This document shows, in pieces, positions 35,440 through 58,069 of a DNA stretch of 64,000 nt. The stretch is from positions 558,001 to 622,000 of the forward strand of contig NZ_JACNMQ010000001.1 of the NCBI RefSeq assembly GCF_020622265.1, in the 5' to 3' direction. Position numbers and translations under genes: made by a program. The notes below the pieces were generated by a model. The model saw nothing but the letters and a program-made list of their open reading frames with translations. It made no database searches and was not told the origin of the DNA. This stretch comes from Halomonas sp. M20. Lineage in GTDB: Bacteria > Pseudomonadota > Gammaproteobacteria > Pseudomonadales > Halomonadaceae. How positions within the stretch are numbered: the stretch's first letter is position 1; each line of letters opens with the position of its first letter.

Positions 35440-37227
35440 ATGGCCATCCGCAAAGAAGCCACCGACCTGCAACGTGTGTTGAAAGCCTGCAGAGGCTCTT
35501 TCATGACGGTGGGGTTCTTCAGCATGTTCATCAACCTTCTCATGCTGGTACCTCCTCTCTACATGCTGCAAGTATACGATCGGGTCATCACCTCCCGCAG
35601 CGAAGCAACGCTACTCATGCTTACCCTGGTAGTGGTGTTCTTGTTCGCGGTAATGGGGGGACTCGAGCTGGTGCGTTCACGCATCCTGATCCGGGTCGGC
35701 AACCGGCTCGATACCTCTATCAGCCAGCGCCTTTATACCGCCATGTTCCGGCGTAGTGTGCTGGCCCAGGGTCAGCAGACCGCGCAACCCTTGAATGACC
35801 TGACCAGCGTGCGTCAGTTTCTGACCGGCAATGGACTGTTTGCGTTCTTCGATGCCCCTTGGGTGCCGGTCTATCTGGCGGTGCTGTTTCTCTTTCACCC
35901 CTGGCTTGGCATCTTCGCCACCTGTGCGGGTCTCGTGCTGCTGACGCTGGCGATCGCCAACGAGAAAGCCACCAAGAAACTGCTGGCAGAGGCCAACAGC
36001 GAAAACATTCAGGCCCAGGATCTGGCCAACAGCAACCTGCGCAATTCCGAGGTGCTGCACGCCATGGGCATGCTGCCCGGCATCATGGGGCGCTGGGCCG
36101 GCAAGCACTACGAGTTTCTAACCAAGCAGTCCCAGGCAAGCGACCGGGCTGGTGCCCTGACCAATGCCTCCAAGATACTCAGGCTGCTGTTCCAGTCACT
36201 GATTCTCGGCCTAGGGGCGTATCTAGTGCTGCAGGGCAGCATGACCCCGGGCATGATGATCGCCGGTTCGATTCTGATGGGTCGCGCACTTGCGCCCATC
36301 GATCAGATGATCGGTAGCTGGAAAGGGTTTGTCGCCTCGCGTACCGCCTATCAGCGCTTGAACGAACTGCTTGAGCAGATTCCCGAAGAGAACCGGCGCA
36401 TGTCCCTGCCTGCACCGGTCGGCGACGTGGCCATCGAATCCGTGGCGGCGGCGCCTCCCGGTGTGCGCATGGCGACCATTCGCGGCATCAATTTCAACGT
36501 GGCCAAGGGCGAGCATGTCGGCATCATTGGCCCTAGCGCGGCGGGTAAATCCACCCTGGCCCGGGTGATACTGGGCATCTGGCCTTCCCAGGTGGGCAAG
36601 GTGCGTCTGGACGGTGCGGATATTACACAGTGGAACCGGGACGAACTGGGGCCCTATATCGGCTATCTGCCTCAGGATATCGAACTGTTCGACGGTACCA
36701 TCAGCGAGAACATCGCGCGATTCGCCGAGGTAGATCCGCAGAAGGTGGTCGAGGCGGCGCAGAAGGCCGGCGTGCACGAGATGATCCTGCAGTTGCCCAA
36801 CGGCTACGATACCGTCATTCGTGCCTCCAGTGGTGTGCTCTCAGGAGGGCAGCGCCAGCGCATAGGCCTTGCTCGGGCGCTGTATGGCAATCCGGTGCTG
36901 GTGGTGCTGGATGAACCCAATTCCAATCTCGACGACAGCGGTGAGCGGGCTCTGGCTCGGGCGCTGCAGGCCCTAAAGGCGGAAGGCGTCACACTCTTTG
37001 TCATCAGCCATCGCACCAGCATTTTGAAGAGCATGGATAATCTGCTGGTACTCAAGGATGGGCAGGTCAGCATGTACGGACCACGCGATCAGGTTTTTGC
37101 TCAGTTTGCCAAGCAGCAGAATCCCGCCAAGGCCGGGCAGGTAGGTCAGTCACAGAATGCGCGTCTGGCCAAGGTTCGACCAGCCCAGACAAGCAAGGAT
37201 GCGCAATCCGAGGAGCAGGGGCAATGA
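35440..37227 (+). CDS. Type I secretion ABC transporter (PrtD/RsaD-like)
   Basis: A 595-residue inner-membrane half transporter. An exporter-type membrane domain (about 25-320) is followed by an ATPase domain with Walker A GPSAAGKST, signature SGGQRQRIGLARAL and Walker B VVLDEPNSNLD. It lacks the C39 or C39-like N-terminal domain, as PrtD/RsaD/HasD transporters do. A 35-residue Gln/Ala-rich tail is extra. It is first of a three-gene type I system with overlapping junctions; likely clients are the DUF4214 proteins at 52-58 kb. Confidence 0.92.
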   Translation: MAIRKEATDLQRVLKACRGSFMTVGFFSMFINLLMLVPPLYMLQVYDRVITSRSEATLLMLTLVVVFLFAVMGGLELVRSRILIRVGNRLDTSISQRLYTAMFRRSVLAQGQQTAQPLNDLTSVRQFLTGNGLFAFFDAPWVPVYLAVLFLFHPWLGIFATCAGLVLLTLAIANEKATKKLLAEANSENIQAQDLANSNLRNSEVLHAMGMLPGIMGRWAGKHYEFLTKQSQASDRAGALTNASKILRLLFQSLILGLGAYLVLQGSMTPGMMIAGSILMGRALAPIDQMIGSWKGFVASRTAYQRLNELLEQIPEENRRMSLPAPVGDVAIESVAAAPPGVRMATIRGINFNVAKGEHVGIIGPSAAGKSTLARVILGIWPSQVGKVRLDGADITQWNRDELGPYIGYLPQDIELFDGTISENIARFAEVDPQKVVEAAQKAGVHEMILQLPNGYDTVIRASSGVLSGGQRQRIGLARALYGNPVLVVLDEPNSNLDDSGERALARALQALKAEGVTLFVISHRTSILKSMDNLLVLKDGQVSMYGPRDQVFAQFAKQQNPAKAGQVGQSQNARLAKVRPAQTSKDAQSEEQGQ

Positions 37228-38612
37228 ACGACAAGACCAACGCTTCAGGCGATAGCGACGATCGCAGCGTCGACGTCACACCCAAGCAGGCTCTGCCCGA
37301 CAGCGCCGCGGGGCCCACCGGGAAGCTACCCACTTCGGACAAGCGCTATCGGCGTCTGGGGTATGGCATTCTGCTGGTGGCTTTCGGCGGTTTCGGCGGC
37401 TGGGCGGCCACCGCCGATCTGGCGGTGGCAGTCGTGGCACCCGGCTCCGTGTCCGTCGAATCCTTCAAGAAGACGGTGCAACATTTCGAGGGCGGCATCG
37501 TCAAGAAAATCCTGGTCAGGGACGGCGATCACGTAGAGGCCGGGGAGCCGGTAGTGATATTGAACAATACCCAGGCGCTTTCGCAGCTGCAGATCGCCCG
37601 CTCTCAATATCTGATCAATCGGGCCGCAGAGGTGCGGCTGCTGGCGGAACAGAAGGGAAGCGACTCCCTGGATTTCCCCGATGAGCTGCTCGGCAGCGAC
37701 TCCCAGCGGGTCAATGAAGTGCTGGCGGTACAAAACGCGCTGTTCGCCGCTCGTCGGGATGCGCTGCAAGGCACCCTGGAAGCGCTGGACGAGCAAGTCG
37801 TGCAGATGCGCGAACAGATTCAGGGCTTCGAGTCGATGATCGGCAACAATCGCTCCCGGCTCAACTCCTTGAAAGAAGAGGCTGGCGACTACCGTTCTTT
37901 GTACAAGGAGGGGCTGGGTGACAATCAGCGGGTGCGGGAGCTCGAGCGCCAGATTCTGCAATACGAAGGCGAGATCGCTCAGCACCGATCGGAGATCGCC
38001 CGGCTGAAGTCCCAGATCAGTGAGAACAAGGTACAAAAACAAGTCAAACGGCAAGAGTTTCAAAAAGAGATCGGCGAACGCCTGCGGGAAGCCCAGGTCA
38101 GCATTGCCGATGCGGAAGAGCGCATCACCGCTCTGAGCGATCAGGTCGAGCGCACCACCGTTCTGGCTCCGGTCTCCGGTACCGTGGTGGGCCTGCAGGT
38201 GCATACCCTGGGCGCCGTGGTCAAACCCGGAGACCCGATCATGGAAGTGGTGCCCTCCGGCGATGGATTCGTGGTCGAAGCCCGGGTGCCGGATCGGGAC
38301 GTGGACAACGTCTATCGTGGCCAGGAGGCTGAAATACGCTTCAGCGCTTTCAATCAGCGTCTGAGTAACGTCATCGAAGGCGAAGTCATCCACCTCAGTG
38401 CGGATACCTTCCAGGACGAGGCCACCGGTGCCTACTACTACAAGGCGCGCATCAAGGTGACGGAACAGGGCGCGAAAGACATGACCGAAAACATGCAGCT
38501 TCTGGCGGGGATGCCTGCAGAAGTCATGATTCGCACCGGTGAACGCACGTTCGCCAGTTACATCGCCAAGCCCATCACCGATATGCTGGCACGCGCCATG
38601 CAGGAGGAATAG
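37224..38612 (+). CDS. Type I secretion membrane-fusion protein (HlyD/PrtE-like)
   Basis: A 462-residue adaptor with a 44-residue cytoplasmic N-terminus, one helix (about 45-62) and a split lipoyl/barrel domain around a long coiled-coil hairpin (about 130-300). The family start of the lipoyl part is VQHFEGGIVKKILVRDGDHVEAGE. The C-terminal RTGERTFASYIAKPITD is typical of PrtE/RsaE. It links the ABC transporter to the TolC-like channel; it overlaps the transporter gene by 4 bp. Confidence 0.92.
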   Translation: MNDKTNASGDSDDRSVDVTPKQALPDSAAGPTGKLPTSDKRYRRLGYGILLVAFGGFGGWAATADLAVAVVAPGSVSVESFKKTVQHFEGGIVKKILVRDGDHVEAGEPVVILNNTQALSQLQIARSQYLINRAAEVRLLAEQKGSDSLDFPDELLGSDSQRVNEVLAVQNALFAARRDALQGTLEALDEQVVQMREQIQGFESMIGNNRSRLNSLKEEAGDYRSLYKEGLGDNQRVRELERQILQYEGEIAQHRSEIARLKSQISENKVQKQVKRQEFQKEIGERLREAQVSIADAEERITALSDQVERTTVLAPVSGTVVGLQVHTLGAVVKPGDPIMEVVPSGDGFVVEARVPDRDVDNVYRGQEAEIRFSAFNQRLSNVIEGEVIHLSADTFQDEATGAYYYKARIKVTEQGAKDMTENMQLLAGMPAEVMIRTGERTFASYIAKPITDMLARAMQEE

Positions 38613-38618
38613 TTCGTC

Positions 38619-40157
38619 GTGTCCGCCCCGAAAAAGCCGTATCCGTTGCTACCCCTGGTTGGGGTGACCTTGGGCGCATTGCTGACTCCGTTGGCGAGCG
38701 CTCAAGACGCTTCTTTCTATGAGCAAGCCGAGGTTCGACAAGCTCAGGCTCAAGTGGCTCAAGCTCGAATGCCTCAAGCTCAAGTGCCCCAGGCTCAGGA
38801 GAACGTCGGTACCGGCGCCTTCCCCGTGGAAGGCGAAAATGTCGTTGCTGCCTTGCCTTCGCTTTCGGCGCTGTTCGGTCTCGCGCTGGGTCACGATGCA
38901 CAGCTTGCCAGTCAGCGCTACGACATGCAGGCAACCGCCCAACAAGTGCCCCAGGCCAAGGCGGGATTGAGACCTCAAGTCGATGCCAGCGCCGCTTACA
39001 TCTATCAGGACTCGGATAACTACTACACCGGCAATCCGGATTTCGACCCGGCCAATGAGTTCACCGATCCGGACAATGAAACCCGCTACCTAGGCAGAAC
39101 CGACGACACCACCTGGCAGATACAGGTTACCCAGCCGCTGTTCAGCCTCGAACGCTGGCGTCAGGTCGACAAGGCTGAAGCGCAGGAGAGCGCCGCGGAG
39201 CTTCAAGTGGCGGTTGCCGAGCGGGATCTGGCTCTGGGCGTCGCCGAGGCCTATCTCGACGCCTATCTTGCCTCGCGCAAGCTGGGGCTGCTCGATTCCA
39301 AGCGGGAAGCACTCACCCTTCAGGTAAAGCAGGCCCAGCGCGCCTACGACCTGGGCGTGGGGGATCGCATCAATCTGTTCGAGTCCCAGTCCCGGCGCGA
39401 TCAGGCCGTCGCCGATCAGATTCGTGCGGAGAACGAGCTGGACAACGCTTTGAGCGACCTGCAGCGTCTTACGGGGCAGTTGCCGGAATTTTCCGGGGTG
39501 AAGCTGGGAGATCTCGGAAGCTTGAAGGTGGCCAGCGACTGGGGCGAGGAAAAGGACTGGCTTTCCCGCACCGGTGGCAATGTCGAGGTGCAGCTGGCCA
39601 AACAGCAGCAGCAGGTAGCCCGGGAAGATACCGCAATACGCCGCGCCGGCCACTATCCGGAACTGAATCTCAACCTGGCTTACTCGGATCGCAGTTCCAA
39701 CGACCCCTTTCGCGAGAGCGAAAATACCTCCGCAAACGTCGAGCTCAATGTGCCCATCTATCGGGGAGGGTATACCAGCGCGAGCGTTCGTCAGGGAGAA
39801 CTGACGGCACTTGCAAGCGAAGCGACCTATACGAACACTCTCAACCTGGCGCGCCAGGAAGTGCGTAAACGGCTGCGTAGCCTAAATGGCGACGTGCGAC
39901 AGATCGAGGCGCTCAAACGCTCTATCGAGTCCAGTCGTCTTTTCCTGGAAGCCGCCGAGAAGGGTGAGAAACTGGGTCTGCGCGATCTGGTGGATGTGCT
40001 CGATGCCCGCGCGGAGCTCTATGATCTGCGCATTCAGTTCGTTGAAGTCGTCCGCCAGTATCTGCTTGATAACTTGAATCTGGAAGCAGCCGTGGGGGGC
40101 TTGGATACCCAGGATCTAGTCGAGGTGACATCGCTGCTGTCGCGCATATCGGGATAG
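38619..40157 (+). CDS. Type I secretion outer-membrane channel (TolC/PrtF-like)
   Basis: A 512-residue TolC-family protein with GTG start (AGGAGG 11 nt upstream) and a signal peptide (cut near PLASAQ). The mature N-terminus carries a short degenerate repeat rich in AQA/PQAQ (about residues 38-62), unusual for the family. The TolC core follows with LGVGDRINLFESQSRRDQ and LGLRDLVDVLDARAELYDL as equivalent motifs in the two halves. Third gene of the type I system. Confidence 0.9.
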   Translation: MSAPKKPYPLLPLVGVTLGALLTPLASAQDASFYEQAEVRQAQAQVAQARMPQAQVPQAQENVGTGAFPVEGENVVAALPSLSALFGLALGHDAQLASQRYDMQATAQQVPQAKAGLRPQVDASAAYIYQDSDNYYTGNPDFDPANEFTDPDNETRYLGRTDDTTWQIQVTQPLFSLERWRQVDKAEAQESAAELQVAVAERDLALGVAEAYLDAYLASRKLGLLDSKREALTLQVKQAQRAYDLGVGDRINLFESQSRRDQAVADQIRAENELDNALSDLQRLTGQLPEFSGVKLGDLGSLKVASDWGEEKDWLSRTGGNVEVQLAKQQQQVAREDTAIRRAGHYPELNLNLAYSDRSSNDPFRESENTSANVELNVPIYRGGYTSASVRQGELTALASEATYTNTLNLARQEVRKRLRSLNGDVRQIEALKRSIESSRLFLEAAEKGEKLGLRDLVDVLDARAELYDLRIQFVEVVRQYLLDNLNLEAAVGGLDTQDLVEVTSLLSRISG

Positions 40158-40248
40158 GGCTTGATGCTTCGCCACGCGAACAATGACATGCTATGAATGG
40201 TGATGCGCGGCTTCGATGCCGCCATCGTCGTTATTGTGGACATGTTTT

Positions 40249-40279
40249 TTGGTGTCTTTCGTCTCGAATACTCTACAAT
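40249..40279 (+). promoter_or_regulatory. Possible sigma-70 promoter for the manC operon
   Basis: TTGGTG (40249-40254) and TACAAT (40274-40279) with a 19-bp spacer in the 219-bp gap between the type I genes and manC. The spacing is long and the -35 weak, so this is only a candidate. Confidence 0.25.
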
Positions 40280-40376
40280 CCCGTCGAGTACCCTCTGTCG
40301 AGCATCGCCGACGGCCTGCTTCTGCCCGCAATCGGCGAAACCCTCGGCCCCTATAGGCCTTGACGCTGGAGCATTC

Positions 40377-41849
40377 ATGATACTACCCGTCATATTGTCC
40401 GGCGGTTCCGGTTCCCGTTTGTGGCCGGTGTCCCGGGAGCACTACCCAAAGCAATTTCTCAAGCTCAACTCGGAAACGTTGACGCTGTTGCAGGAAACTA
40501 TTCGCCGCACCGAAAACATCCCCGAGTGCTTGCCCCCGCTGCTGGTGTGCAACGAGCAGCATCGTTTTCTGGTAGCAGAACAGCTGCAGCAGCTTGGCAT
40601 TACCGGCTCACGCATCCTGCTGGAGCCGGATGGGCGCAATACTGCCCCGGCGTTGACTTTGGCGGCCCTGGCGGCCCTCGAAATTGATGAAGAACTGCAA
40701 CTGCTGGTCATGCCCGCGGATCATGTCATCGAGCAGCCCGAAGCCTTTGTCGCGGCGGTTGAGCAAGGCCGCTCCCTGGTAAAAGAGGGGTGTCTGGTGA
40801 CCTTCGGCATCACGCCGCACTCTCCCAATACCGGCTACGGCTATATCAGCAAGGGCGAGGCGCTGGGGGTGGGCTATCGGGTCGATACCTTTGTCGAGAA
40901 ACCCGACCGGGATCGGGCCCAGCAGTATCTGGATAGTGGCGATTACCTTTGGAACAGTGGCATCTTCCTATTCGGCGCCAGGCAGTATCTGACGGAAATC
41001 GCCGAGCACGCGCCGAAAATTCTTGAATGCTGCAACGCCGCCTTCGCCCAGCGCCAGGAAGATCTGGACTTTCTGCGTATCGGTGCCAAGGCTTTCGCGG
41101 AGTGCCCCAGCGATTCCATCGACTATGCGGTCATGGAACACACCCGACGTGCGGCGCTAGTGCCTATGGATCCGGGTTGGAACGACATCGGCGCCTGGGA
41201 CGCCATTCATGCGCTCAGCAGCAACACCAAGGATGATAACGGCAACGCCATCCAAGGCGACGTGCTGCTGCACGATGTCAGCGGCAGCTTCGTGCGCAGC
41301 GATTCGCGCCTGGTCGCGGCGGTAGGGGTTCAGGATCTGATCATCGTCGAGACCGATGACGCGGTGCTGGTGGCGGGCCGCGACCATGTGCAGGACACCA
41401 AGCAGATCGTGAATATCCTGAAGACGCAGCATCGCAGTGAAGGCCAAGTGCATCAATGCGTGTATCGCCCCTGGGGCCATTACCGCACCATGGTCATCAG
41501 CGAGGGCTTTCAGGTGAAGGAGATTGTGGTCAATCCGGGCCAGGCCCTATCCCTACAGATGCATCACCACCGCGCCGAGCATTGGGTCGTTGTACAGGGC
41601 ACCGCCAAGGTGACTCAGGGCCAAGGGCACGGCGACGCCGAGAGCATGAAAAGCTTTCTGCTCTCCGAGGATGAGTCCACCTATATCTCCCTGGGCACGG
41701 TGCATCGGCTCGAGAACCCCGGTGTCATTCCCCTGCGTTTGATCGAAGTGCAGACCGGCAGCTACCTGGGGGAGGACGATATCGTACGGTTCAACGATGT
41801 CTATGGGCGAGTGGCTACCCACGCGGCTTCCGAGGAACAGAATGCCTGA
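40377..41849 (+). CDS. manC: Mannose-1-P guanylyltransferase / mannose-6-P isomerase
   Basis: A 490-residue bifunctional enzyme. The N-terminal nucleotidyltransferase has LSGGSGSRLWPVSREHYPKQF and FVEKPDRDRA. The C-terminal cupin isomerase domain (about 360-480) has RPWGHY, FQVKEIVVNPG and the metal-binding LQMHHHRAEHWVVV. It makes GDP-mannose from mannose-6-P. The start is ATG 40377; the frame extends upstream without family similarity. It opens the polysaccharide operon and overlaps the next gene. Confidence 0.95.
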   Translation: MILPVILSGGSGSRLWPVSREHYPKQFLKLNSETLTLLQETIRRTENIPECLPPLLVCNEQHRFLVAEQLQQLGITGSRILLEPDGRNTAPALTLAALAALEIDEELQLLVMPADHVIEQPEAFVAAVEQGRSLVKEGCLVTFGITPHSPNTGYGYISKGEALGVGYRVDTFVEKPDRDRAQQYLDSGDYLWNSGIFLFGARQYLTEIAEHAPKILECCNAAFAQRQEDLDFLRIGAKAFAECPSDSIDYAVMEHTRRAALVPMDPGWNDIGAWDAIHALSSNTKDDNGNAIQGDVLLHDVSGSFVRSDSRLVAAVGVQDLIIVETDDAVLVAGRDHVQDTKQIVNILKTQHRSEGQVHQCVYRPWGHYRTMVISEGFQVKEIVVNPGQALSLQMHHHRAEHWVVVQGTAKVTQGQGHGDAESMKSFLLSEDESTYISLGTVHRLENPGVIPLRLIEVQTGSYLGEDDIVRFNDVYGRVATHAASEEQNA

Positions 41850-43110: not shown

Positions 43111-44339
43111 ATCTGATCATCAATCTGGAACCGCTACTTAAACCCCTCACTGGCATCGGCCACTACACGCGCGAGCTTGCAAGAGAGCTGACAAGAGTGC
43201 CAGTTGCCGGTTCTGGAATGAGCGAGGCTGGCGAAATAGCCGGGCTTCTCGGGCCGCGTATCGTTCACTTGAGCAGTGATCATCCGCTGCTGGGCGGCAA
43301 TATTGATGCCAATAATCCTCCCGCCGCCGAGGCCGAAAGGCCATCGTCGGCACCGGAAGGGCGCCTGTCTCAATGGGCCCGGCGCTATCTGCGTAATGGC
43401 GCCACTCGCTATCTGTATCACAAGGCCACGGGGCTGCAATTGCGCCGCTATGCAACTCGGCAGGCAAGCCCTGAAGAAGCGCTCTACTGGGAGCCCAACT
43501 ATGTGCGCCTGCCCTGGCCTGGCAGGAGCGTGGTCACGGTTCACGATCTTTCCCATCGCCGTTTTCCCGAGTATCACCCAAGCGATCGCATCGCCTTTCT
43601 CGAACGCCATTTACAGGCCAGCCTGGACGGCGCCACCCGCATCAATGTGGTTTCCCAGTTCACCTCAGATGAACTGACCGCACTCTATGACATTGACCCG
43701 GCCCGTATCGATATCGTCTCTCCCGGTGTCGGCGAGCGTTTTTTTGACGTGGATACCCACCAGCGTGAACGAGTGCGCAAGTGTCACGATCTGCCGGCGC
43801 ATTACTGTCTGAGCGTTGGAACACTCGAGCCACGCAAGAATTTGCCGCGCCTGCTCGACGCCTTTCTTGATCAATCGCTAGAGCGCCAGCGGGAATGCCC
43901 ACTACTCTTGGTAGGGCAGCGTGGCTGGGGCAATCAACAGCTGTCTCGAAAGGCGCTGGACGCGCTTGAGGATGGTCGCCTGCGCCAGCTGGGTTACATT
44001 CAGGATGCGGATCTACCGGCGCTGTATGCAAATGCCACATTGTTTGCATATATGTCGCGTTATGAAGGCTTCGGCATGCCGGTCATCGAGGCCATGGCCG
44101 CGGGTGTGCCGGTGGTCACTGCGGATCGTACCGCCACTCGCGAGGTCGCGGCGGAGGCCGCTCTCAAGGTCGATCCAGATGATGCCGGCGCCATTCGCCA
44201 GGCCCTGGAACGATTGCAGGATGACAGCGCCCTGGGGCGGTCATTGCGGGAAGCGGGACGAGTGCGTGCCGGGCATTTTACTTGGCAGCACAGCGCGGCT
44301 AACCTGCGTGCCTCCTTTCGTCATGCCATGAGTCATTGA
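43107..44339 (+). CDS. GT4 glycosyltransferase
   Basis: A 410-residue GT-B enzyme. The N-terminal motif is INLEPLLKPLTGIGHYTREL. It has VVTVHDLSHRRFPEYHP, the donor-site start LSVGTLEPRKNLPRLLDAF, and the EGFGMPVIEAMAAGVPVV signature of GT4 mannosyltransferase-like enzymes. Coupled to both neighbours (ATGA upstream; TTGA junction downstream). Acceptor and linkage unknown; with ManC in the operon, GDP-mannose or a derivative is the likely donor. Confidence 0.87.
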   Translation: MNLIINLEPLLKPLTGIGHYTRELARELTRVPVAGSGMSEAGEIAGLLGPRIVHLSSDHPLLGGNIDANNPPAAEAERPSSAPEGRLSQWARRYLRNGATRYLYHKATGLQLRRYATRQASPEEALYWEPNYVRLPWPGRSVVTVHDLSHRRFPEYHPSDRIAFLERHLQASLDGATRINVVSQFTSDELTALYDIDPARIDIVSPGVGERFFDVDTHQRERVRKCHDLPAHYCLSVGTLEPRKNLPRLLDAFLDQSLERQRECPLLLVGQRGWGNQQLSRKALDALEDGRLRQLGYIQDADLPALYANATLFAYMSRYEGFGMPVIEAMAAGVPVVTADRTATREVAAEAALKVDPDDAGAIRQALERLQDDSALGRSLREAGRVRAGHFTWQHSAANLRASFRHAMSH

Positions 44340-44344
44340 ACGCC

Positions 44345-45148
44345 ATGCGACAGCACCTTCGCGCTCTGCGCGCCAGCATACCGGTGATACTGCATCTGGC
44401 TCGACAGGATCTCATTGACCGCCATTCCGGGTCGCTGCTGGGCGCCACCTGGACCTTCATCGGTCCGCTGGTCAATATTCTGGTCTTTGTGCTGGTGTTC
44501 TCCCGTATCATGGGAGCCAAGCTCGAAGGCTTCGGCGCCGAAATCGATCAGTACTCCTACAGCATCTATCTTATCTGTGGGGTGCTGGCCTGGGCTGCCT
44601 TCGCCAACAGCCTTGCGCGCATCACCAATCTTTTTCGCGACCAGAGCAATCTGGTTACCAAGGTGAACATCTCCCTGCTGGCGCTGCCGCTCGCTGTGCT
44701 GCTGGCGGAAACCATCGTCTATGCCATCAGCATGTGCTTCTTCATTGGCTTTCTAGTGCTGATCGATTTTCCCATCACACTCTACTGGCTGGGCGTGCCG
44801 CTAATTTTTGCCCTGCAGTGCGCAAGCGTCTATGCGGTGGGCCTTGGGCTTGCGATCATGGCGGTGTATTTGAAGGATATCAAGGAAGTGGTCGCCGTGG
44901 TGCTGCAGGTGTGGTTCTGGATCACCCCCATTGTCTATGTGCCTCAGATCATTCCGCCCTGGGCGCTGCCCTGGATGCAGCTCAATCCGTTTTATACCCT
45001 GGTCAATTCCTATCGCGACCTGATCATGTATCAGCGTCTGCCGGATCTGTCCCATATTGCGCTGTTTGCGCTGGTCACCGCCGGGGTGCTGTCGCTCTCC
45101 CTGTGGCTTTTGGGCAGAACCGAACGCGATCTGCGCGATTGTCTGTAA
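44345..45148 (+). CDS. wzm: Polysaccharide ABC transporter permease (Wzm-like)
   Basis: A 267-residue ABC-2 permease with about six helices. It shows LARQDLIDRHSGSLLGATWTF (amphipathic start typical of Wzm/TagG) and a C-terminal WFWITPIVYV..LNPFYTLVNSYRDL. It exports an undecaprenyl-linked polysaccharide with the ATPase encoded next. A TTG at 44336 overlapping the previous stop is an alternative start. Confidence 0.9.
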   Translation: MRQHLRALRASIPVILHLARQDLIDRHSGSLLGATWTFIGPLVNILVFVLVFSRIMGAKLEGFGAEIDQYSYSIYLICGVLAWAAFANSLARITNLFRDQSNLVTKVNISLLALPLAVLLAETIVYAISMCFFIGFLVLIDFPITLYWLGVPLIFALQCASVYAVGLGLAIMAVYLKDIKEVVAVVLQVWFWITPIVYVPQIIPPWALPWMQLNPFYTLVNSYRDLIMYQRLPDLSHIALFALVTAGVLSLSLWLLGRTERDLRDCL

Positions 45149-45159
45149 GTGAGCCTGAC

Positions 45160-46386
45160 ATGATCGAGATTCAAGGCCTCAACAAGTCCTTCAAGCTGTT
45201 TCATCGACCCATCGACCGCTTTCTCGAGGCCGTTACCGGGAAAAACCGCCATACCAGCTACCATGCCCTGAAGGACATCAGCTTCCAGGTTGCTCCTGGC
45301 GAAGTGCTGGGTGTGCTGGGCCGAAACGGCGCCGGCAAATCGACGCTGCTCAAGCTGCTCACCGGGGTACTCTTGCCGGACAGCGGCACCATCGACATCG
45401 ACGGACGCATTACCGGCCTTTTGGAGCTGGGCACCGGCTTCAACGTGGAGCTCACCGGCCGTCAGAACATTAACGCCAACGCCCTGATGCTGGGCATGAC
45501 CCATGATGAAATCGAGGCTAGACGCGATGCCATCATCGAGTTCTCGGAGCTTGGCAGCTACATCGATGAGCCGCTGCGCACCTACTCCTCCGGCATGACC
45601 ATGCGCCTGGCGTTTTCCATTGCCATTCACGCGGATCCGCGCTGCTTTCTGGTAGATGAAGCCTTGTCGGTAGGAGATGGCTATTTCCAGCAGAAGTGCA
45701 TGAAGCGCATTCGTGAGTTCAAGGACAGCGGCGGCTCGATCCTGTTTGTCTCCCATGACCTCAATGCGGTCAAGATGCTCTGCGATCGGGCCCTGGTGCT
45801 GGAAGACGGCCATGTTGTCTTTAACGGTGATGCGGACGATGCGGTCAATCGTTACAACCGCATCATGGCCCGTCAGGCGGAAGAGGAAGAAGGGCGTCAT
45901 CAGGATCGCCATCACGGCGCCTATGGCAGCGGCGAGATTCGCGTCATCCACGGCGAAGTCATAGGGGACGACAGTCATAGCGCCACCATCGCCAGCGGCG
46001 AAATGCTGGACGTGTGCCTGACTTTGAAGGCCAGTACCGACGTTGAGGACGCTACCCTGGGCCTGCTGATACGGGATCGCTTCGGTCAGGACATCTTTGG
46101 CGTCAACACCTTCCAGCTTGACCAGTCCCTGTCGCTGAAACAGGCCCAGTCCCAGCAGGTGCATCTGCGCGTCAAGGCGGATATCGCCCCGGGCAAGTAC
46201 ACCGTCACCGTTGCCCTGCACAGCCGTGAACATCATCTGGAAGACTGCTATTGGTGGTGCGACAGCTATCTGCAGTTCGAAGTGGCCGGCTACAAGCAGC
46301 ACCTGTTCTCCGGTGTCTGCCGCCTGCCCATGGAATTACAGCTGGCCCCGGCGCAAACCCCGGATACTGCCAGCCAGCAGCCTTAG
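45160..46386 (+). CDS. wzt: Polysaccharide ABC transporter ATPase with C-terminal glycan-binding domain (Wzt-like)
   Basis: A 408-residue protein. The ATPase (about 1-250) has Walker A GRNGAGKST, the TGLLELGTGFNVELTGRQN block, signature YSSGMTMRLAFSIA and FLVDEALSVGD. The C-terminal beta-sandwich (about 255-400) resembles the Wzt carbohydrate-binding domain, which recognises the modified chain end in O9a-type export. The start is the ATG at 45160 (MIEIQGLNKSF); the frame extends upstream through wzm only by chance. It precedes the methyltransferase gene, the usual partner that creates the recognised terminus. Confidence 0.9.
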   Translation: MIEIQGLNKSFKLFHRPIDRFLEAVTGKNRHTSYHALKDISFQVAPGEVLGVLGRNGAGKSTLLKLLTGVLLPDSGTIDIDGRITGLLELGTGFNVELTGRQNINANALMLGMTHDEIEARRDAIIEFSELGSYIDEPLRTYSSGMTMRLAFSIAIHADPRCFLVDEALSVGDGYFQQKCMKRIREFKDSGGSILFVSHDLNAVKMLCDRALVLEDGHVVFNGDADDAVNRYNRIMARQAEEEEGRHQDRHHGAYGSGEIRVIHGEVIGDDSHSATIASGEMLDVCLTLKASTDVEDATLGLLIRDRFGQDIFGVNTFQLDQSLSLKQAQSQQVHLRVKADIAPGKYTVTVALHSREHHLEDCYWWCDSYLQFEVAGYKQHLFSGVCRLPMELQLAPAQTPDTASQQP

Positions 46387-51905: not shown

Positions 51906-54083
51906 ATGGCAACTCAAGCGAATCTGAATTTCGTACAACAACTCTACGTCGCCTACTATGGCCGCCCGGCGGAAAGCGACGGTCAGCGCTACTGGGCCGA
52001 GCGTGCCGATGCCGCGGGCCAGGGAAGCATCGTTGAAGCCTTCGGCAATTCCAAAGAGTATCAAAACGAGTTCGGCAATCTCGAAAGCGCGGAACTGGTC
52101 AATAACCTTTATCAGCAGCTGTTCGGTCGTGACGGCGATGCAGAAGGTGTCGAATATTACGCCGGTCTGCTGGATAGCGGTGAAAAGAGTCTGGCGCACA
52201 TCGCCCTGACCATCAAGAACGCGGCCCAAGGCAGTGATGCCAAGTTCTTCGATGCCCGAGTCGCGGAAGCCCAGCGCTACACCAATGAAAACAGCGATAG
52301 CTACAGTACGGAAGCGGGTCGCGACGCCATTGCGAATGTCAGCATTCCCAGCGATGCCAGCCTCGATTTCGTTCAGGAAATGTACGTGGCCTACTATGGT
52401 CGCCCTGCGGATGCCGCCGGTCAGCGCTTCTGGGCCGAGATGGCAGATGCTCAGGGGCAGGGTGCCATCGTCAACGCCTTCGGCGACTCCCAGGAGTACC
52501 AGGACAAATTCAGCGGCATGGACAACCGCGAGCTGGTCAACACCCTGTACCAGCAGCTATTCGATCGAGATGGCGACAAAGGCGGCCTTGACTACTACGC
52601 CGGCGTGCTGGATCGCGGTGAAAAGAGCTTGGCGGAAATCGCCTTGACCATCAAGAATGCAGCCTCGGGCAGCGATGCGGAGTTCTTTGACCGCCGTGTT
52701 GAGGCAGCTCAGAAGTATACCGATGGAAACACAGACAATGCCGGTGGTGGTGATACTGATGGCGGTGACACAGGCGGCGGTGATACTGGTGGTGGCGATA
52801 ATAGCGACGATATTGCCGCGCTGGAGCAGCGTATCGAAGAACTTGATGCGACCCTGAACAATCGCGCTGGACTCGAGGAAAGTCTGGAGCAGGCTCGAAA
52901 TGCACTGCAGAGCGATGAGGAAGCGACAGGTGATGCCAATTCATTGCAGCAGGCTCTAAATAACGCGCAACAAGCGATTGAACAGCGCAAGATTCTCGAA
53001 CAGAACATCACTGCCGAGCAGGCAGATGTAAACGCAGCTCAGGATGCTGTCGATAGTGCCTTCAGCGAGACCAGCATTACCGGTGAGAATGCTACTCCCG
53101 AGGAAATTACGGCGGAACGCGAAGCGCTGAAACAAGCTGTTATCGACTCGGGCGGCACGATCATCGACGGCGTTGCTCAGAAACAGGAGAGCGATCAATC
53201 ATCTTCGGAAGCGGCAGCCCAGGCCTATAACGACTTCAAGCTACTGGAACGCGAGTTTCAAGATGCCAACAATGCACTGACCAAAGCCTTCAACGAAGGC
53301 GCCTCTCAGGACGTTTTAGATAGTCTGAAAGCAGACTATGACGTTGCCAAGGCGGACGCCATCGACGCTTTTACCCTGACTGAATACAACCCGAATAATT
53401 CTAGCGGTTTCTATGCCGAACTGACCGGTGAGCTTGAAGCACTAGAAAACCAGGTGGAAGCCACCGGCGGCGACTTTGATAGTGTCAACGGCAACCAAAC
53501 TGCGGTACCGGCTGAAGGTGGCGGCGGCACCAGCTCAGGAGATGTACAGACAATTGATGCCTATAATGAGTTTGCCGGTCTGGTCGGAATGCTCGAAAAG
53601 CAACAGGCCGAACTCAGTGCTGCTCAGGCGGAGTTGCAAACCGATGTAGACGCAGACGGAAGTCTGGAAGCGCTTGACCAAGCGTTGAGTATTGCTCAGC
53701 AGAACTTGAAAGACCGCGCTGATCTCAAAGACGCCGTTACTCAGGCTGAGGCGAAGCTCAATGAGGATATTGAGGCCAACGGTACTACCGACAAGCTCGA
53801 GGCTGATTTGGCCGACGCCAAGCAAACTCTTGCGGAGCTCACTGACGGCGAAGAGGGCGGTCAGCCGTTTTCACTGCAGGGTGACAATGACAGCCTCACC
53901 TATGACGCTTTTGAAACCGCTCCGGCCAGCGATGATCAATCCTTCGAGCTCGACTCGATAGAAAACCTCGCCGATTCAGTTCAAGCTAACGAGCCCGATA
54001 CAGCGGCCCTTACGACAAGCGATGTAGGCGCGGACATCGATGTGACTGGCGTTGCTCACGGCTCGTTCGAGACGATTGCCTGA
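51906..54083 (+). CDS. Putative type I-secreted surface protein with two DUF4214 repeats and coiled coils
   Basis: A 725-residue acidic protein with no cysteine and no Sec signal peptide. Residues 5-127 and 150-272 are two near-identical DUF4214 repeats (core YVAYYGRPA...LYQQLFGRDGD..G..YYAG.LD.GEKSLA). A Gly/Asp linker of GGDTGG type follows (279-300). Residues 301-675 are mostly heptad-like alpha-helix (QRIEELDATLNNRAGLEESL). The C-terminal 60 residues are acidic and end GSFETIA, like uncleaved type I signals. The ATG at 51906 starts the repeat; a GTG 4 codons earlier is less likely. Own terminator. No enzymatic motif seen. Confidence 0.8.
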   Translation: MATQANLNFVQQLYVAYYGRPAESDGQRYWAERADAAGQGSIVEAFGNSKEYQNEFGNLESAELVNNLYQQLFGRDGDAEGVEYYAGLLDSGEKSLAHIALTIKNAAQGSDAKFFDARVAEAQRYTNENSDSYSTEAGRDAIANVSIPSDASLDFVQEMYVAYYGRPADAAGQRFWAEMADAQGQGAIVNAFGDSQEYQDKFSGMDNRELVNTLYQQLFDRDGDKGGLDYYAGVLDRGEKSLAEIALTIKNAASGSDAEFFDRRVEAAQKYTDGNTDNAGGGDTDGGDTGGGDTGGGDNSDDIAALEQRIEELDATLNNRAGLEESLEQARNALQSDEEATGDANSLQQALNNAQQAIEQRKILEQNITAEQADVNAAQDAVDSAFSETSITGENATPEEITAEREALKQAVIDSGGTIIDGVAQKQESDQSSSEAAAQAYNDFKLLEREFQDANNALTKAFNEGASQDVLDSLKADYDVAKADAIDAFTLTEYNPNNSSGFYAELTGELEALENQVEATGGDFDSVNGNQTAVPAEGGGGTSSGDVQTIDAYNEFAGLVGMLEKQQAELSAAQAELQTDVDADGSLEALDQALSIAQQNLKDRADLKDAVTQAEAKLNEDIEANGTTDKLEADLADAKQTLAELTDGEEGGQPFSLQGDNDSLTYDAFETAPASDDQSFELDSIENLADSVQANEPDTAALTTSDVGADIDVTGVAHGSFETIA
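51918..52286 (+). repeat. DUF4214 repeat A (coding tandem duplication)
   Basis: Encodes residues 5-127 of the 725-residue surface protein. It matches repeat B (52353-52721) along its whole length with a period of 435 bp. A third copy begins the 614-residue protein at 54.7 kb. Confidence 0.7.
52353..52721 (+). repeat. DUF4214 repeat B (coding tandem duplication)
   Basis: Encodes residues 150-272. It keeps the same YGRPAD, GQGAIVNAFG, LVNTLYQQLF and GEKSLAEIALTIKNAA blocks as repeat A and the 54.7-kb gene. Confidence 0.7.
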
Positions 54084-54131
54084 TAGCGATAGCTGAACCA
54101 TTACAGGAAAACGAGTGTAGAGCCCTTCACA

Positions 54132-54157
54132 CCGGCGCCATCAGGCGCCGGTTTTTT
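54132..54157 (+). terminator. Terminator after the first DUF4214 gene
   Basis: CCGGCGCC and GGCGCCGG with an ATCA loop followed by TTTTTT. Confidence 0.9.
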
Positions 54158-54736
54158 ATGTGTATAGTTGTAGGATCCAGAATGATCAAATCGCCTATAG
54201 AAGTTATCCTCTGCTAGCAGCTAGGGAGTTTCTTCCGTCAAAGCGATAACGGCGAAGGTGCACTGATGCTGATGGAAAATGTCTTCAGTCCTGACGGTGG
54301 CGGGGTCGGCGACATATTAACTGTTGCTTTGGTGTGAATGCCGATGAGCCGGTCTACGGCGTCGAGGCGATTTCTCGAGGAGAGATAGCCTGAACTAACG
54401 CCGCTTTCTTGCCTTTCTTTGGCCCCTGGCTGTTCTGGTCGGGAGTAGTCAAATTGCAGTCTTTGAGGGAGTCCGGTTCGAAAACGAATGCCGGCGAGCT
54501 CTGGAATGCTGAGGATTACCGGCGGTTCTCGTATGGGTGTTTCTTATCGAAATATTGGAAACAGGAGTGAGGTATCTTCGATCCTGAGTCCTGTCACCGA
54601 TGAACTATTATTTTTTATATTCAAACGCTATGCTGGCACCTGGAGTTTAGCCGAAGGCTCGACTATTACTCATGGCATCCATTGTGTCATGCATGTCGAG
54701 TCTGAACCAAAACATGGAACTAGTTGAGGAAGATTA
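54158..54736. other. 579-bp interval without an intact gene; possible decayed coding sequence
   Basis: No convincing gene. One plus frame from about 54330 to 54570 reads protein-like (VNADEPVYGVEAIS, then LPFFGPWLFWSG, then NAGELWNAEDYRRF) but is cut by a stop at 54391 and lacks a start. A 79-codon frame at 54488-54727 has no ribosome site or recognisable motif. The last 20 bp carry the GAGGAAG ribosome site of the next gene. Probably the promoter of the next gene plus remnant sequence. Confidence 0.4.
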
Positions 54737-56581
54737 ATGGCTACCAAAGCGTCGTTAGATTTCGTACAACGCTCGTATGTCTCTTACTATGGTCGCCCAG
54801 CGGATGCTGCCGGTCTGCAATACTGGGCCAATCGCGCCGATGAGCAAGGCCAAGGCGCAATCATCAACGCGTTCGGGACGTCCAAGGAGTTTACCGGTCA
54901 ATACGGTAATATGGGCAATCCCGCGTTGGTAAATTCACTTTATCAACAGTTGTTCAGCCGTAACGCCGACCCGGAAGGGCAGGCTTATTATGCCGATCAA
55001 CTCGCCCGTGGTGAGAAGACCCTGGCTGAGATTGCCGTCACCATCGCCAATGCCGCACAAGGTAGCGACAGGACGGTCATCGATAACAAGGTGGCGGTAG
55101 CGCAGTCCTATACCGCCAACCGGGCCGGTGACGCCTACAACCGTCAGGAAGCCGAGAATCTGGTGGATGGCATCAATGCCGGCACTACCCCGGCGCAGGT
55201 CAATGGTCTGAAAGGCCAGTACGGCAGTGGCCCGGCATTTACCGTCGAGGGTGCGCCGATCGAGAGCAGTTATTCCGTGGCGGATAGCAAGGGTATCCGC
55301 TTCGAGGGCGTCAACTCCGATCAAACCATCAATCTCAATGGGCTCGATCCAAGCAAGCGCGTCGATGTCGTCAACAGTAACGTGCAGCTCAACCTCGATA
55401 GAGTAGCGCTGGACAAGCTGAACCTCGTTAACTCCAGCGCAACAGTCTTTACCAACGATCAAACCCTGGCCACGGTACTCAAGGCCAGTGCGAATGGTAA
55501 CTCGACGCTGGATATCGGTTCTTCGGCTGCCAACGGGCTGCAGACCTTGATTCTCGATGGCCCAGGCAACCTGAACTTGAAAGGCGCCACCCAAGGGCTC
55601 AACGTCCAAGGCGACGTCAATGTGGATGCTTCGCGCATGAGCGGCAGCATCGACATCGCCGAGCGCTATCTCAATCGCGCTACGGATATCAAGACCGGCA
55701 GCGCGGACGATCGTATCAACATCAATGCCGTGGATGGCAGTTTCATCCTCGACGGCGGCGGTGGTAACGATACCCTGGTCGTTACCGGTAGCAGCAGCAA
55801 TACACCCCTTACCGCGTTCGGCCAGAAGGTCAAAGGCATCGAGACGGTAGAATTCGACAATTACGTCAAGATCAATGCCGCCGAGCTACCCGGGGTAGGT
55901 ACCATCACCCTGGATGGACTGGGCACCGTCAATAATCTGGCAGCGAATCAGCAGGTCGTTGCCAACGCCCAGGTCGATGCCCCCAATGATTCCAGCCTGC
56001 TTCTTAACAATGCAGGCGAGACGGTCAGCGTTTCTTCGCGCTTTTCACCGGATCAGCCGAGAGTTAATCAGGAACTCGAACTCAAGGTGAATGCCTCGGC
56101 TCTAGATGCATTGCAGGGCGGTACCTTGAAGCTGTCAGGCAACGCGCCTGTCGATTATGACGATAGCGGTCGTGGCTTCGATGTCATCGATGCGTCGGCA
56201 ATGAAAGGCACTCTTGAACTCAAAGGCGCCAGCTACCGTGCGGAGACTGTCAAGCTGGGAAGCGGAGCGGATCGTCTGGAGATTCGCGATGCTTCGACCC
56301 GGCGTGACATGGATCGACTGGAGAACTTCGACGTCAACGCCGATGAACTGGTCAATGTCGATGCGATTCCTGCCAATGTAGCCGGTGCTCAGAACCTTGA
56401 CGCAGCGTTTCAAGCGGCCGCCGGTTCTGCAGGCGGTAATACCGTGTACTTCGGTTTTGGAGGCAGCACCTATCTGTATGCCGAAAATGACGCTCAACCG
56501 GGACTCAGCGGTACCGATTTTGCAGTGGAGCTGGTGGGTACGCCTTCGAATTCCGTCGATGGCACCATGCTGACCGGCTGA
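54737..56581 (+). CDS. Putative S-layer-like type I-secreted protein (DUF4214 plus beta-rich body)
   Basis: A 614-residue acidic, cysteine-free protein without a Sec signal. Residues 5-127 form a DUF4214 repeat nearly identical to those of the 725-residue protein. The rest is rich in Asn, Asp, Val and Gly with beta-solenoid-like strands (LNLVNSSATVFTNDQTL). One glycine-rich calcium-type segment occurs near residue 338 (LDGGGGNDTLVV). The C-terminal region (DFAVELVGTPSNSVDGTML) is a plausible type I signal. Composition and N-terminal domain recall S-layer proteins such as RsaA. GAGGAAG ribosome site; own terminator. Confidence 0.78.
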   Translation: MATKASLDFVQRSYVSYYGRPADAAGLQYWANRADEQGQGAIINAFGTSKEFTGQYGNMGNPALVNSLYQQLFSRNADPEGQAYYADQLARGEKTLAEIAVTIANAAQGSDRTVIDNKVAVAQSYTANRAGDAYNRQEAENLVDGINAGTTPAQVNGLKGQYGSGPAFTVEGAPIESSYSVADSKGIRFEGVNSDQTINLNGLDPSKRVDVVNSNVQLNLDRVALDKLNLVNSSATVFTNDQTLATVLKASANGNSTLDIGSSAANGLQTLILDGPGNLNLKGATQGLNVQGDVNVDASRMSGSIDIAERYLNRATDIKTGSADDRININAVDGSFILDGGGGNDTLVVTGSSSNTPLTAFGQKVKGIETVEFDNYVKINAAELPGVGTITLDGLGTVNNLAANQQVVANAQVDAPNDSSLLLNNAGETVSVSSRFSPDQPRVNQELELKVNASALDALQGGTLKLSGNAPVDYDDSGRGFDVIDASAMKGTLELKGASYRAETVKLGSGADRLEIRDASTRRDMDRLENFDVNADELVNVDAIPANVAGAQNLDAAFQAAAGSAGGNTVYFGFGGSTYLYAENDAQPGLSGTDFAVELVGTPSNSVDGTMLTG

Positions 56582-56613
56582 TACTATTCGGCAAGCAACG
56601 GCAGGAACTACCG

Positions 56614-56639
56614 ACGCCCCTTACGAGGGGCGTTTTTTT
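56614..56639 (+). terminator. Terminator after the S-layer-like gene
   Basis: ACGCCCC and GGGGCGT around TTACGA, followed by seven Ts. Confidence 0.88.
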
Positions 56640-56910: not shown

Positions 56911-58029
56911 ATGAACAATGCACAAAAAACTATATCACAGGAACAGCTGGGGTCGCTGAGCGGGGTCTACCAGGACCTAGTTGAGTCGGATACGTTCTTC
57001 AAGGTCGACTATACGGCGTTGAATAGCAGCGGCGTAGCAGGCGGTGCCTTTCTGGCATTAAATTCGGATACCAACGTACTGACGGTAGTGACGACGGGAA
57101 AGGGGGTAGAGTCCGGCGTGCCCCACCCCCAGCATATCCACGGGTTCGCAACGAAAGCGGACGGTAGCGCTCAGAACTCCGTCGCTCCGACGCTGGCTCA
57201 GGATGCCGATGGCGATGGCGTCGTCGAATTGGCAGAAGGGGGCGAAGTATATGGCCCTATTCAGCTTGCCTTGACCGATCCTGCAGGGGGCGCCATTCCC
57301 GACTTCCCCAACGCCTCCGGTAATAGCTTTGTACAAACGGCTTCCTACAATCTGAATGAGTTGGATGCTGGAGCCATGAACAAGGATGGTGAGGGCGCGT
57401 CACTGGATGAGGTGTTGACGGCACAGAACCTGGACCAGCGAGAAATTGTGTTGCACGGCCTGACGCTGAACGGCGGCCAGGGCGAAGGCACCGAAGGAGA
57501 AGCCGATGGGACCGCCGGCTACAAGGCGGTACTGCCCATTGCGGCCGGAGAAATAGAGCGGATCGATGCGCAGCAGGCAATGGCGGATTTAAGCGATGGA
57601 CGCCTTGGTATATCCAATGATGTAGTTGCTTTCGACGCTCAGGGCAGCACCGGTAAGACGTATCGCATCTACGACTCAGTGCTGAATAGAGCCGCAGATC
57701 AGGAAGGATTGAGCTTCTACACCAATCAAATGGACGAAGGGGTAAGCCATACGGATATTGCTAATTCTTTGCTGAATTCCGAGGAGTTTACGGCCAATTT
57801 CGGTGATGTCGACGATCTCGGCAATGACGAATACGTCGATTTACTCTACCAGAACGTTCTTGATCGTGAGGCCGATGGAGGCGGTCGAGAGTATTACGTC
57901 AACCAGCTGGAGCAAGGCGTAAGCCGTGCTGACATCGTGGGTAGTTTCTCCGAAAGCGAGGAACATCAGGCCCTTTTGGTAGGACAATATGACGGAGGCT
58001 TCTTGCTCAACGAAGGCGTTATTGCTTAA
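56911..58029 (+). CDS. Putative secreted CHRD-like protein with C-terminal DUF4214 repeats
   Basis: A 372-residue acidic protein, no signal peptide, no cysteine. The N-terminal half resembles CHRD-type domains: HPQHIHGFAT at about 72-81, then an EF-hand-like loop DADGDGVVELAE and VYGPIQLALT. A second His-containing strand is IVLHGLTLNG. The C-terminal part (about 245-355) holds two DUF4214-type units (YRIYDSVLNRAADQEGLSFY and YVDLLYQNVLDREADGGGRE). The extreme end GGFLLNEGVIA fits a type I signal. Ligand and activity unknown; calcium binding by the DxDGDG loop is likely. Own promoter region and terminator. Confidence 0.75.
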   Translation: MNNAQKTISQEQLGSLSGVYQDLVESDTFFKVDYTALNSSGVAGGAFLALNSDTNVLTVVTTGKGVESGVPHPQHIHGFATKADGSAQNSVAPTLAQDADGDGVVELAEGGEVYGPIQLALTDPAGGAIPDFPNASGNSFVQTASYNLNELDAGAMNKDGEGASLDEVLTAQNLDQREIVLHGLTLNGGQGEGTEGEADGTAGYKAVLPIAAGEIERIDAQQAMADLSDGRLGISNDVVAFDAQGSTGKTYRIYDSVLNRAADQEGLSFYTNQMDEGVSHTDIANSLLNSEEFTANFGDVDDLGNDEYVDLLYQNVLDREADGGGREYYVNQLEQGVSRADIVGSFSESEEHQALLVGQYDGGFLLNEGVIA

Positions 58030-58044
58030 GAAGCTATTCTGCCA

Positions 58045-58069
58045 CCCGCCCGATCCCTGGGCGGGTTTT
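58045..58069 (+). terminator. Terminator after the CHRD/DUF4214 gene
   Basis: CCCGCCC and GGGCGGG around a 7-nt loop followed by TTTT. Confidence 0.85.

Follow-up and report, generated by a model that had tools for sequence, protein, structure and literature searches.

An RsaA-like candidate surface protein of Halomonas sp. M20 and the association of its anchor type with the polysaccharide exporter type in Halomonadaceae

Across 275 Halomonadaceae genomes, the type of anchor module is associated with the type of the Wzm polysaccharide exporter, and one homologous protein body is headed by three different N-terminal modules. The analysis centers on one gene of Halomonas sp. M20 (genome size, 3.89 Mb), located in a stretch of 64,000 nucleotides that is referred to as the window. 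Its product is probably a type-I-secreted surface protein, held non-covalently by an anchor that is matched to the exported glycan and perhaps forming an S-layer. The architecture of the protein, its fold match to RsaA, the type I secretion system (T1SS) and exporter types, and the association between anchor and exporter were all established by computation. The unexpected part of the result, as read from sequence comparison, is the modularity, with anchors apparently exchanged on homologous bodies. Genomes and loci are cited below by number (G and L, respectively).

The target gene and its cluster

The initial annotation described a monocistronic gene with a strong ribosome site and a terminator, as expected for a highly expressed surface protein. 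The gene proved to be real, a single open reading frame on the forward strand that starts with ATG and is preceded by a ribosome-site-like sequence, GAGGAAG, read by eye (Table 1). The terminator was also recovered, with nine pairs and a T-run, while the number of terminator-like sites in the region of the target (eight, against 5.9 in shuffled sequences, sd 2.8) is not clearly above chance. The monocistronic arrangement agrees with the terminator-like sites that the neighbors have of their own (54131–54152 and 58044–58066) and with gaps of 653 and 329 bp. The promoter scan found no site on the forward strand immediately 5' of the gene. The claim of high expression fared worse, as codon adaptation is ordinary (CAI 0.679, rank 12 of 43 among the window genes taken as real; 27 ribosomal-protein and elongation-factor genes used as reference average 0.704) and exceptional expression is unsupported by sequence. 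Such a value is compatible with good expression and gives no evidence of a dominant protein.

Table 1. Features of the target gene, its product, and the surrounding cluster.
Feature	Residues	Position	Strand	Basis or remark
T1SS permease/ATPase, PrtD type		35440..37227	+	TIGR01842, 786.5 bits, cut-off 510.15
T1SS periplasmic adaptor, HlyD type		37224..38612	+	TIGR01843, 395 bits, cut-off 208.65
T1SS outer-membrane channel, TolC type		38619..40157	+	TIGR01844, 236.5 bits, cut-off 225.15
GDP-mannose pyrophosphorylase/mannose-6-phosphate isomerase (ManC)		40197..41849	+	TIGR01479, PF00483, PF01050; longest ORF, family match begins at residue 62
Wzm-type polysaccharide ABC permease, type A		44336..45148	+	PF01061, family-wide typing
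Wzt-type ATPase with Wzt_C domain		45142..46386	+	PF14524, E 5.9e-26; start picked by homologue length, longest ORF starts at 44734
Neighbor, 725 aa from ATG (729-aa ORF), two DUF4214 anchors and acidic body		51906..54083	+	
Ribosome-binding-site-like GAGGAAG before ATG		54726..54732	+	Read by eye from sequence
CDS, 614 aa, ATG start; RsaA-like candidate surface protein, putatively type-I-secreted		54737..56581	+	
Helical anchor module, DUF4214 (PF13946), phycobilisome-linker-like fold	1–161	54737..55219	+	
Beta-solenoid-like body	170–545	55244..56371	+	DSSP of model, fold matches, body homologues
Sole RTX-like motif found, GGGGNDTL	340–347	55754..55777	+	Pattern count
Segment resembling the RsaA C-terminus, probable T1SS-signal region	570–606	56444..56554	+	hhalign
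Intrinsic terminator, nine pairs, T-run		56613..56634	+	
Neighbor, 372 aa, C-terminal DUF4214 in two stretches		56911..58029	+	

Both neighbors of the target also carry DUF4214. The upstream product (51906–54083) combines tandem anchors with a very acidic body (pI 4.05), and its CAI of 0.686 is slightly above that of the target, so that it is possibly more abundant at the surface than the target. The N-terminal part of the downstream product (56911–58029) looks CHRD-like by eye, which the Pfam scan did not confirm. None of the window's three DUF4214 proteins was assigned to a family by NCBIfam. Elsewhere in the same genome, at an unlinked locus (L080:10015-11565), DUF4214 is joined to a Peptidase_M14-type domain, and the genomes G004, G006, and G012 have DUF4214 matches in frames of 523–524 aa on other contigs, similar in length to the L080 protein.

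A complete PrtD-type T1SS trio is encoded at 35440–40157, 15–19 kb upstream of the target and not adjacent to it. It is followed downstream by ManC, glycosyltransferases, and then the Wzm/Wzt pair, and the secretion system and the exporter together lie 8–19 kb upstream of the target. The Wzt_C domain recognizes glycan. By analogy with RsaA in Caulobacter, these genes are the part set expected for a T1SS-secreted, O-antigen-held protein (PMC8828063).

The RsaA-like body and the DUF4214 anchor

A layout related to that of RsaA had been proposed from the sequence, and structural comparison found the similarity. The AlphaFold2 model of the target (mean pLDDT 77, pTM 0.61), built from a 15-row alignment in which two rows bear another N-terminal module across the anchor columns, consists of helices up to residue 161, strands from 169 to 545, and a mixed C-terminal part, i.e., a helical N-terminal domain followed by a beta body. 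Foldseek returned five PDB matches at E<=0.001, all of them RsaA chains (best E 1.3e-5, probability 1.00), and the next matches were serralysin-type proteases, from E 0.03. The TM-scores of the model to RsaA in Foldseek are low (0.24–0.31, rmsd 11–14). In VIA, RsaA occupied the top three rows (Z 11.9, 10.8, and 10.7; 368 aligned in the best row, rmsd 8.9), with CyaA RTX blocks, serralysins, and others at Z 8–10. Near the C-terminus, hhalign aligned the body profile with the end of RsaA over 38 columns at 32% identity (E 4.5e-5, prob 68.7). Sequence searches of the PDB gave nothing useful, either with the whole target protein or with the body profile, which returned four rows at E 0.078–0.95 (two lectins, an acetyltransferase, and a TonB receptor). 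The RsaA-like fold and order of parts, the C-terminal stretch, and the presence of the T1SS and Wzm/Wzt in the cluster thus support the RsaA-layout reading.

The description of the body as beta-rich, with abundant Asn, Asp, and Val and one glycine-rich, calcium-like segment, was likewise confirmed by its composition (9.2, 9.0, and 8.8%, respectively; pI 4.35; no Cys) and by the GGGGNDTL motif at residue 340. The several RTX calcium motifs of RsaA-type proteins were not found, the pattern occurring once in the target protein, and PF00353 was absent from it in the Pfam scan at E<=0.001.

The N-terminal DUF4214 domain, also named in the initial annotation, was recovered by Pfam in two stretches (E 7.6e-17) with 61.6 bits, above the cut-off of 23.2. 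The anchor had further been called nearly identical to that of the neighboring gene, which is too strong, as the two copies in the 729-aa upstream neighbor are only 55% and 59% identical to it (58% and 56% in a second comparison). A model of the anchor alone (pLDDT 88) had no Foldseek match at E<=0.001, and in VIA it retrieved phycobilisome-linker rows with Z up to 5.9 and no RsaA row. With the sequence profile of the anchor, 32 rows of the PDB were matched up to E 10; most are phycobilisome linkers (best E 7.3e-10), and RsaA is not named among them. The modeled fold weakly resembles phycobilisome linker domains, a Z of 5.9 being too low for proof of relation. The RsaA_NTD family (PF19198) was not found in the target, for which the Pfam scan gave DUF4214 alone at E<=0.001, and it was the sole Pfam match up to E 10 in the N-terminal domain of RsaA itself. 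The hhalign comparison of the target anchor with the single RsaA sequence gave a prob of 0.1, and in the control-genome searches, Caulobacter vibrioides was named for ribosomal L2 and not for DUF4214. At the level of sequence, the anchor appears to have no detectable relation to the anchor domain of RsaA. The target thus combines an RsaA-like arrangement of parts with an anchor from a different family. In BFVD, one significant match was unnamed, and the weak DUF4214 matches were proteins of uncultured Caudovirales phages, which would fit a function in phage adhesion through glycan binding.

Anchor modules and exporter types across Halomonadaceae

The target protein query matched 16 of 58 genomes, i.e., its own and relatives. 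Full-length orthologues with DUF4214 are present in G012 (95%), G004 (84%), and G006 (84%), and DUF4214 is also carried by the protein of G008, whose body is 39% identical. The bodies of G001, G011, and G035 (38–41%) are headed instead by a repeat module, with the pattern FDxxYYL...HYxxYGxxEGR by eye, for which Pfam scans of proteins from L043, L044, and L019 gave no match and the PDB no convincing relative (two weak rows, E 0.16 and 0.9). In G210, the body is headed by a third module, which has no Pfam or PDB match and is 35% alike in another protein of that genome. Homologous bodies thus carry DUF4214 in five genomes, the repeat module in three, and the third module in one, and the modules show no detectable relation to one another. 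The body tree joined G001 and G210 with a support of 100/99 despite their different anchors, while most other branches between anchor types were unresolved. At E<=1e-6, the body profile matched 23 of the 275 family genomes, with the whole body in one piece in nine, most of it in two pieces in G007, and partial matches in the rest; the body is therefore whole or nearly whole in 10 of 275. Body relatives with no detected anchor were seen in G007 and, as C-terminal halves, in G001, G002, and G003. Anchored proteins from a single cluster nearly always had the same type of anchor in the clusters examined, G035 and G003 being the exceptions.

The repeat module is also found at C-termini (L043:17454-18578 and L044:11713-13392); in the latter protein, it follows a trypsin domain and RTX repeats, serving an enzyme as its tail anchor. 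In Halomonas sp. McH1-25, a body fragment (L044:8343-8924) and an anchorless half-body (L044:5043-6137) lie beside the full gene and are possibly duplicated or decaying copies and a source for recombination.

Wzm proteins were assigned to type A (at least 41% to the window protein), type B (at least 43% to the G011 protein), or type C (29–36% to both), with limits set after inspection of the lists. Types A, B, and C were found in 24, 30, and 14 of the 275 genomes, G277 having both B and C. The T1SS ATPase is 79–97% identical in ten other genomes in which the gene is covered, usually near an SHMT gene, while Wzm/Wzt are split by type. At E<=1e-12, DUF4214 was detected in 40 genomes and the repeat module in 11. 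DUF4214 is present in all 24 type-A genomes, 10 of 14 type-C genomes, and a single one of the 30 type-B genomes (G277, which counts toward both C and B); the remaining six DUF4214 genomes are without a typed Wzm. The repeat module occurs in none of the type-A or type-C genomes (0/24 and 0/14) and in 11 of the 30 type-B genomes. Of the 17 type-B genomes whose Wzm is at least 51% to that of G011, 11 have a T1SS match at E<=1e-150; the repeat module is present in each of these and in none of the six that lack the T1SS. It was not detected in the other 13 type-B genomes (Wzm 43–49% to G011).

For types A and B against the two anchors, Fisher's test with G277 left out gave 2.4e-9, a value to be read with the genomes not being independent. 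No genome had both anchors together at E<=1e-12, and this mutual exclusion is weak by itself, since only ~1.6 shared genomes are expected by chance. The evidence is the association of the anchor conditional on exporter type, rather than mutual exclusion. The counts depend on the threshold, as E<=1e-12 misses the DUF4214 of the type-C genome G276, found by Pfam at 1.6e-10. Exceptions are G277, which combines type B and C exporters with a DUF4214 anchor; the type-C genome G003, with DUF4214 plus weak repeat-module matches (5.9e-7 and 5.4e-5); and the type-B genome G035, with one DUF4214 match under the Pfam cut-off.

The recurrence of these changes was followed on a T1SS ATPase tree of 46 rows, which holds solely genomes with both a typed exporter and an anchor (G245 was left out, G277 was coded type C though it has type B too, and the branches of G187 and G036 are long). 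Ten changes are required for the anchor label on this tree, with at least seven forced for DUF4214 by well-supported branches, and the label is unclustered (mean of 10.2 after shuffling, with 108 of 200 shuffles as low). Six pairs of rows are independent of each other on supported branches, and all six show a difference in exporter type that goes the same way (p 0.031); G210, with its third module, is not among them. Because the rows were preselected for both traits, a perfect match among them follows from that choice, and the tree shows the number of independent switches (at least six) and not how rare mismatches are; the rarity of anchor–exporter mismatches rests on the genome counts. The contrast is sharpest between G002 (repeat module, type B) and G003 (DUF4214, type C), whose ATPases are sisters with branches of ~0.01. 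G003 may be caught in the change, since its weak repeat-module matches are kept beside DUF4214.

Proposed role, alternatives, and known systems

In the proposed mechanism, the C-terminal tail would be recognized by the PrtD-type T1SS encoded 15–19 kb upstream, and the protein would pass to the outside without a cleaved N-terminal signal. The RsaA-like beta body would fold outside the cell, the helical DUF4214 would dock non-covalently on the polysaccharide from the Wzm/Wzt of the cluster, probably the O-antigen, and the body would then self-assemble into an S-layer or make a non-crystalline coat. We infer secretion by the T1SS of the cluster, glycan binding, and the O-antigen as the ligand. 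The two neighbors and the unlinked M14-peptidase-like protein, which also bear DUF4214, would be attached to that glycan as well. A change of the exported glycan in a lineage would be accompanied by a change of anchor module, with the T1SS retained and the body retained in some genomes. DUF4214, the repeat module, and the third module of G210 would accordingly be interchangeable anchors, each for one class of Wzm/Wzt-exported polysaccharide, and surface proteins would be re-plugged by anchor swap; we give this generalization even chances of being correct.

The association might also arise if anchor and exporter genes were replaced as one island, without functional matching. Anchor and Wzm genes are no more than 20 kb apart in 23 of 24 type-A, 10 of 10 type-C, and 11 of 11 type-B genomes, so that block transfer contributes and may explain part of the co-switching. 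As the whole explanation, however, it is unlikely, as the sister bodies of G001 and G210 differ in anchor, with the change inside the gene at the anchor/body junction, and the T1SS of the same cluster does not follow the anchor/exporter changes. Anchors of the same type also lie on other contigs, with DUF4214 in the target genome (the M14-peptidase-like protein), G012, G006, and G004, and weaker repeat-module matches (E 5e-9 to 3e-5) in G001, G011, and G014. DUF4214 resembles phycobilisome linker domains in sequence and fold, and the known members of that family bind proteins, which speaks for a contact with an outer-membrane protein rather than a glycan. Such a contact would not lead one to expect an anchor type that tracks the Wzm type, and we regard it as improbable.

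Apart from the matching of anchor to glycan, the function of the body itself can be read in two ways. Like RsaA, it may tile the cell surface as a two-dimensional lattice, a possibility that we consider somewhat doubtful. No PDB entry other than RsaA was significant in Foldseek, and RsaA also headed the VIA list; a helical anchor and a beta body are combined with a T1SS in the cluster; full-length orthologues exist at 84–95%; and T1SS-linked S-layers are known in Gammaproteobacteria (PMC11784148). The single RTX-like motif, the ordinary codon adaptation, which is slightly exceeded by that of the 729-aa neighbor, and the small number of family genomes with a whole or nearly whole body argue against a true S-layer. 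An RTX-type adhesin or biofilm-matrix protein, whose body binds outside surfaces and not itself, would be consistent with the matches of other RTX beta-rolls at Z 8–10 and with DUF4214 being joined elsewhere to an M14 peptidase domain, which means that the anchor is not special to S-layers. RsaA outranks such folds (E 1.3e-5 vs. 0.03 for the next), though, and this function is rather unlikely.

If a glycan-matched anchor is the correct reading, DUF4214, whose function is unknown, and the two modules that lack names act family-wide as matched partners of a polysaccharide exporter. This would give DUF4214 a concrete, testable function, predict which strains' polysaccharide each module binds, and offer a route for protein display on Halomonas-type hosts. 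The modules would then be widespread LPS-type-specific anchors of Gram-negative surface proteins, with a role comparable to that of SLH or CWB2 in Gram-positive bacteria.

A surface role for DUF4214 has been considered before. For Halo4214, a 1038-aa DUF4214 protein of a Halomonas that was mutated in seven of eight evolved populations, the authors proposed an outer-surface anchoring domain and reported a SWISS-MODEL alignment of 88 residues (S16-V104) with the S-layer protein of Caulobacter (PMC11970703). Halo4214 differs from the target in the lipase-like C-terminal part proposed for it, and the available sections of that paper make no link to O-antigen type (PMC11970703). In segmented filamentous bacteria, another lineage, DUF4214 is among the likely surface-anchoring domains, and earlier microscopy is reported to have detected no S-layer in them (PMC12780176). 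Among the open-access titles listed, none linked anchor modules to exporter types, and RsaA together with DUF4214 was not found in the open-access literature searched.

The "hauberk" S-layer proteins of Methylotuvimicrobium (MEALZ_0971/EQU24_15540), whose deletion removes the surface pattern, are like the target gammaproteobacterial, distantly RsaA-like, and preceded by T1SS genes, but their genes exceed 5 kb (PMC11784148); the likeness is by description, not sequence. T1SS-linked S-layers of methanotrophs are also treated in PMC13274458. RsaA of Caulobacter crescentus (5n8p, 6p5t, 6t72, and 6z7p), which is secreted by a T1SS and bound to the O-antigen via its N-terminal domain (PMC8828063), shares with the target the helical N-terminal anchor followed by a beta-solenoid body and the 38-column stretch at the C-terminus. 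It differs in its length of 1026 residues against 614, in the single RTX-like motif of the target, and in its anchor, RsaA_NTD instead of DUF4214, with no detectable profile similarity. The nearest precedent for the matching of a surface protein to LPS is SapA/SapB of Campylobacter fetus, where the surface protein type correlates with the O-antigen-based serotype A or B (PMC3887049). The principle is the same, as judged by description and not by sequence, but SapA/SapB vary within one species, whereas the Halomonadaceae case is family-wide, involves modules without detectable relation, and retains the T1SS.
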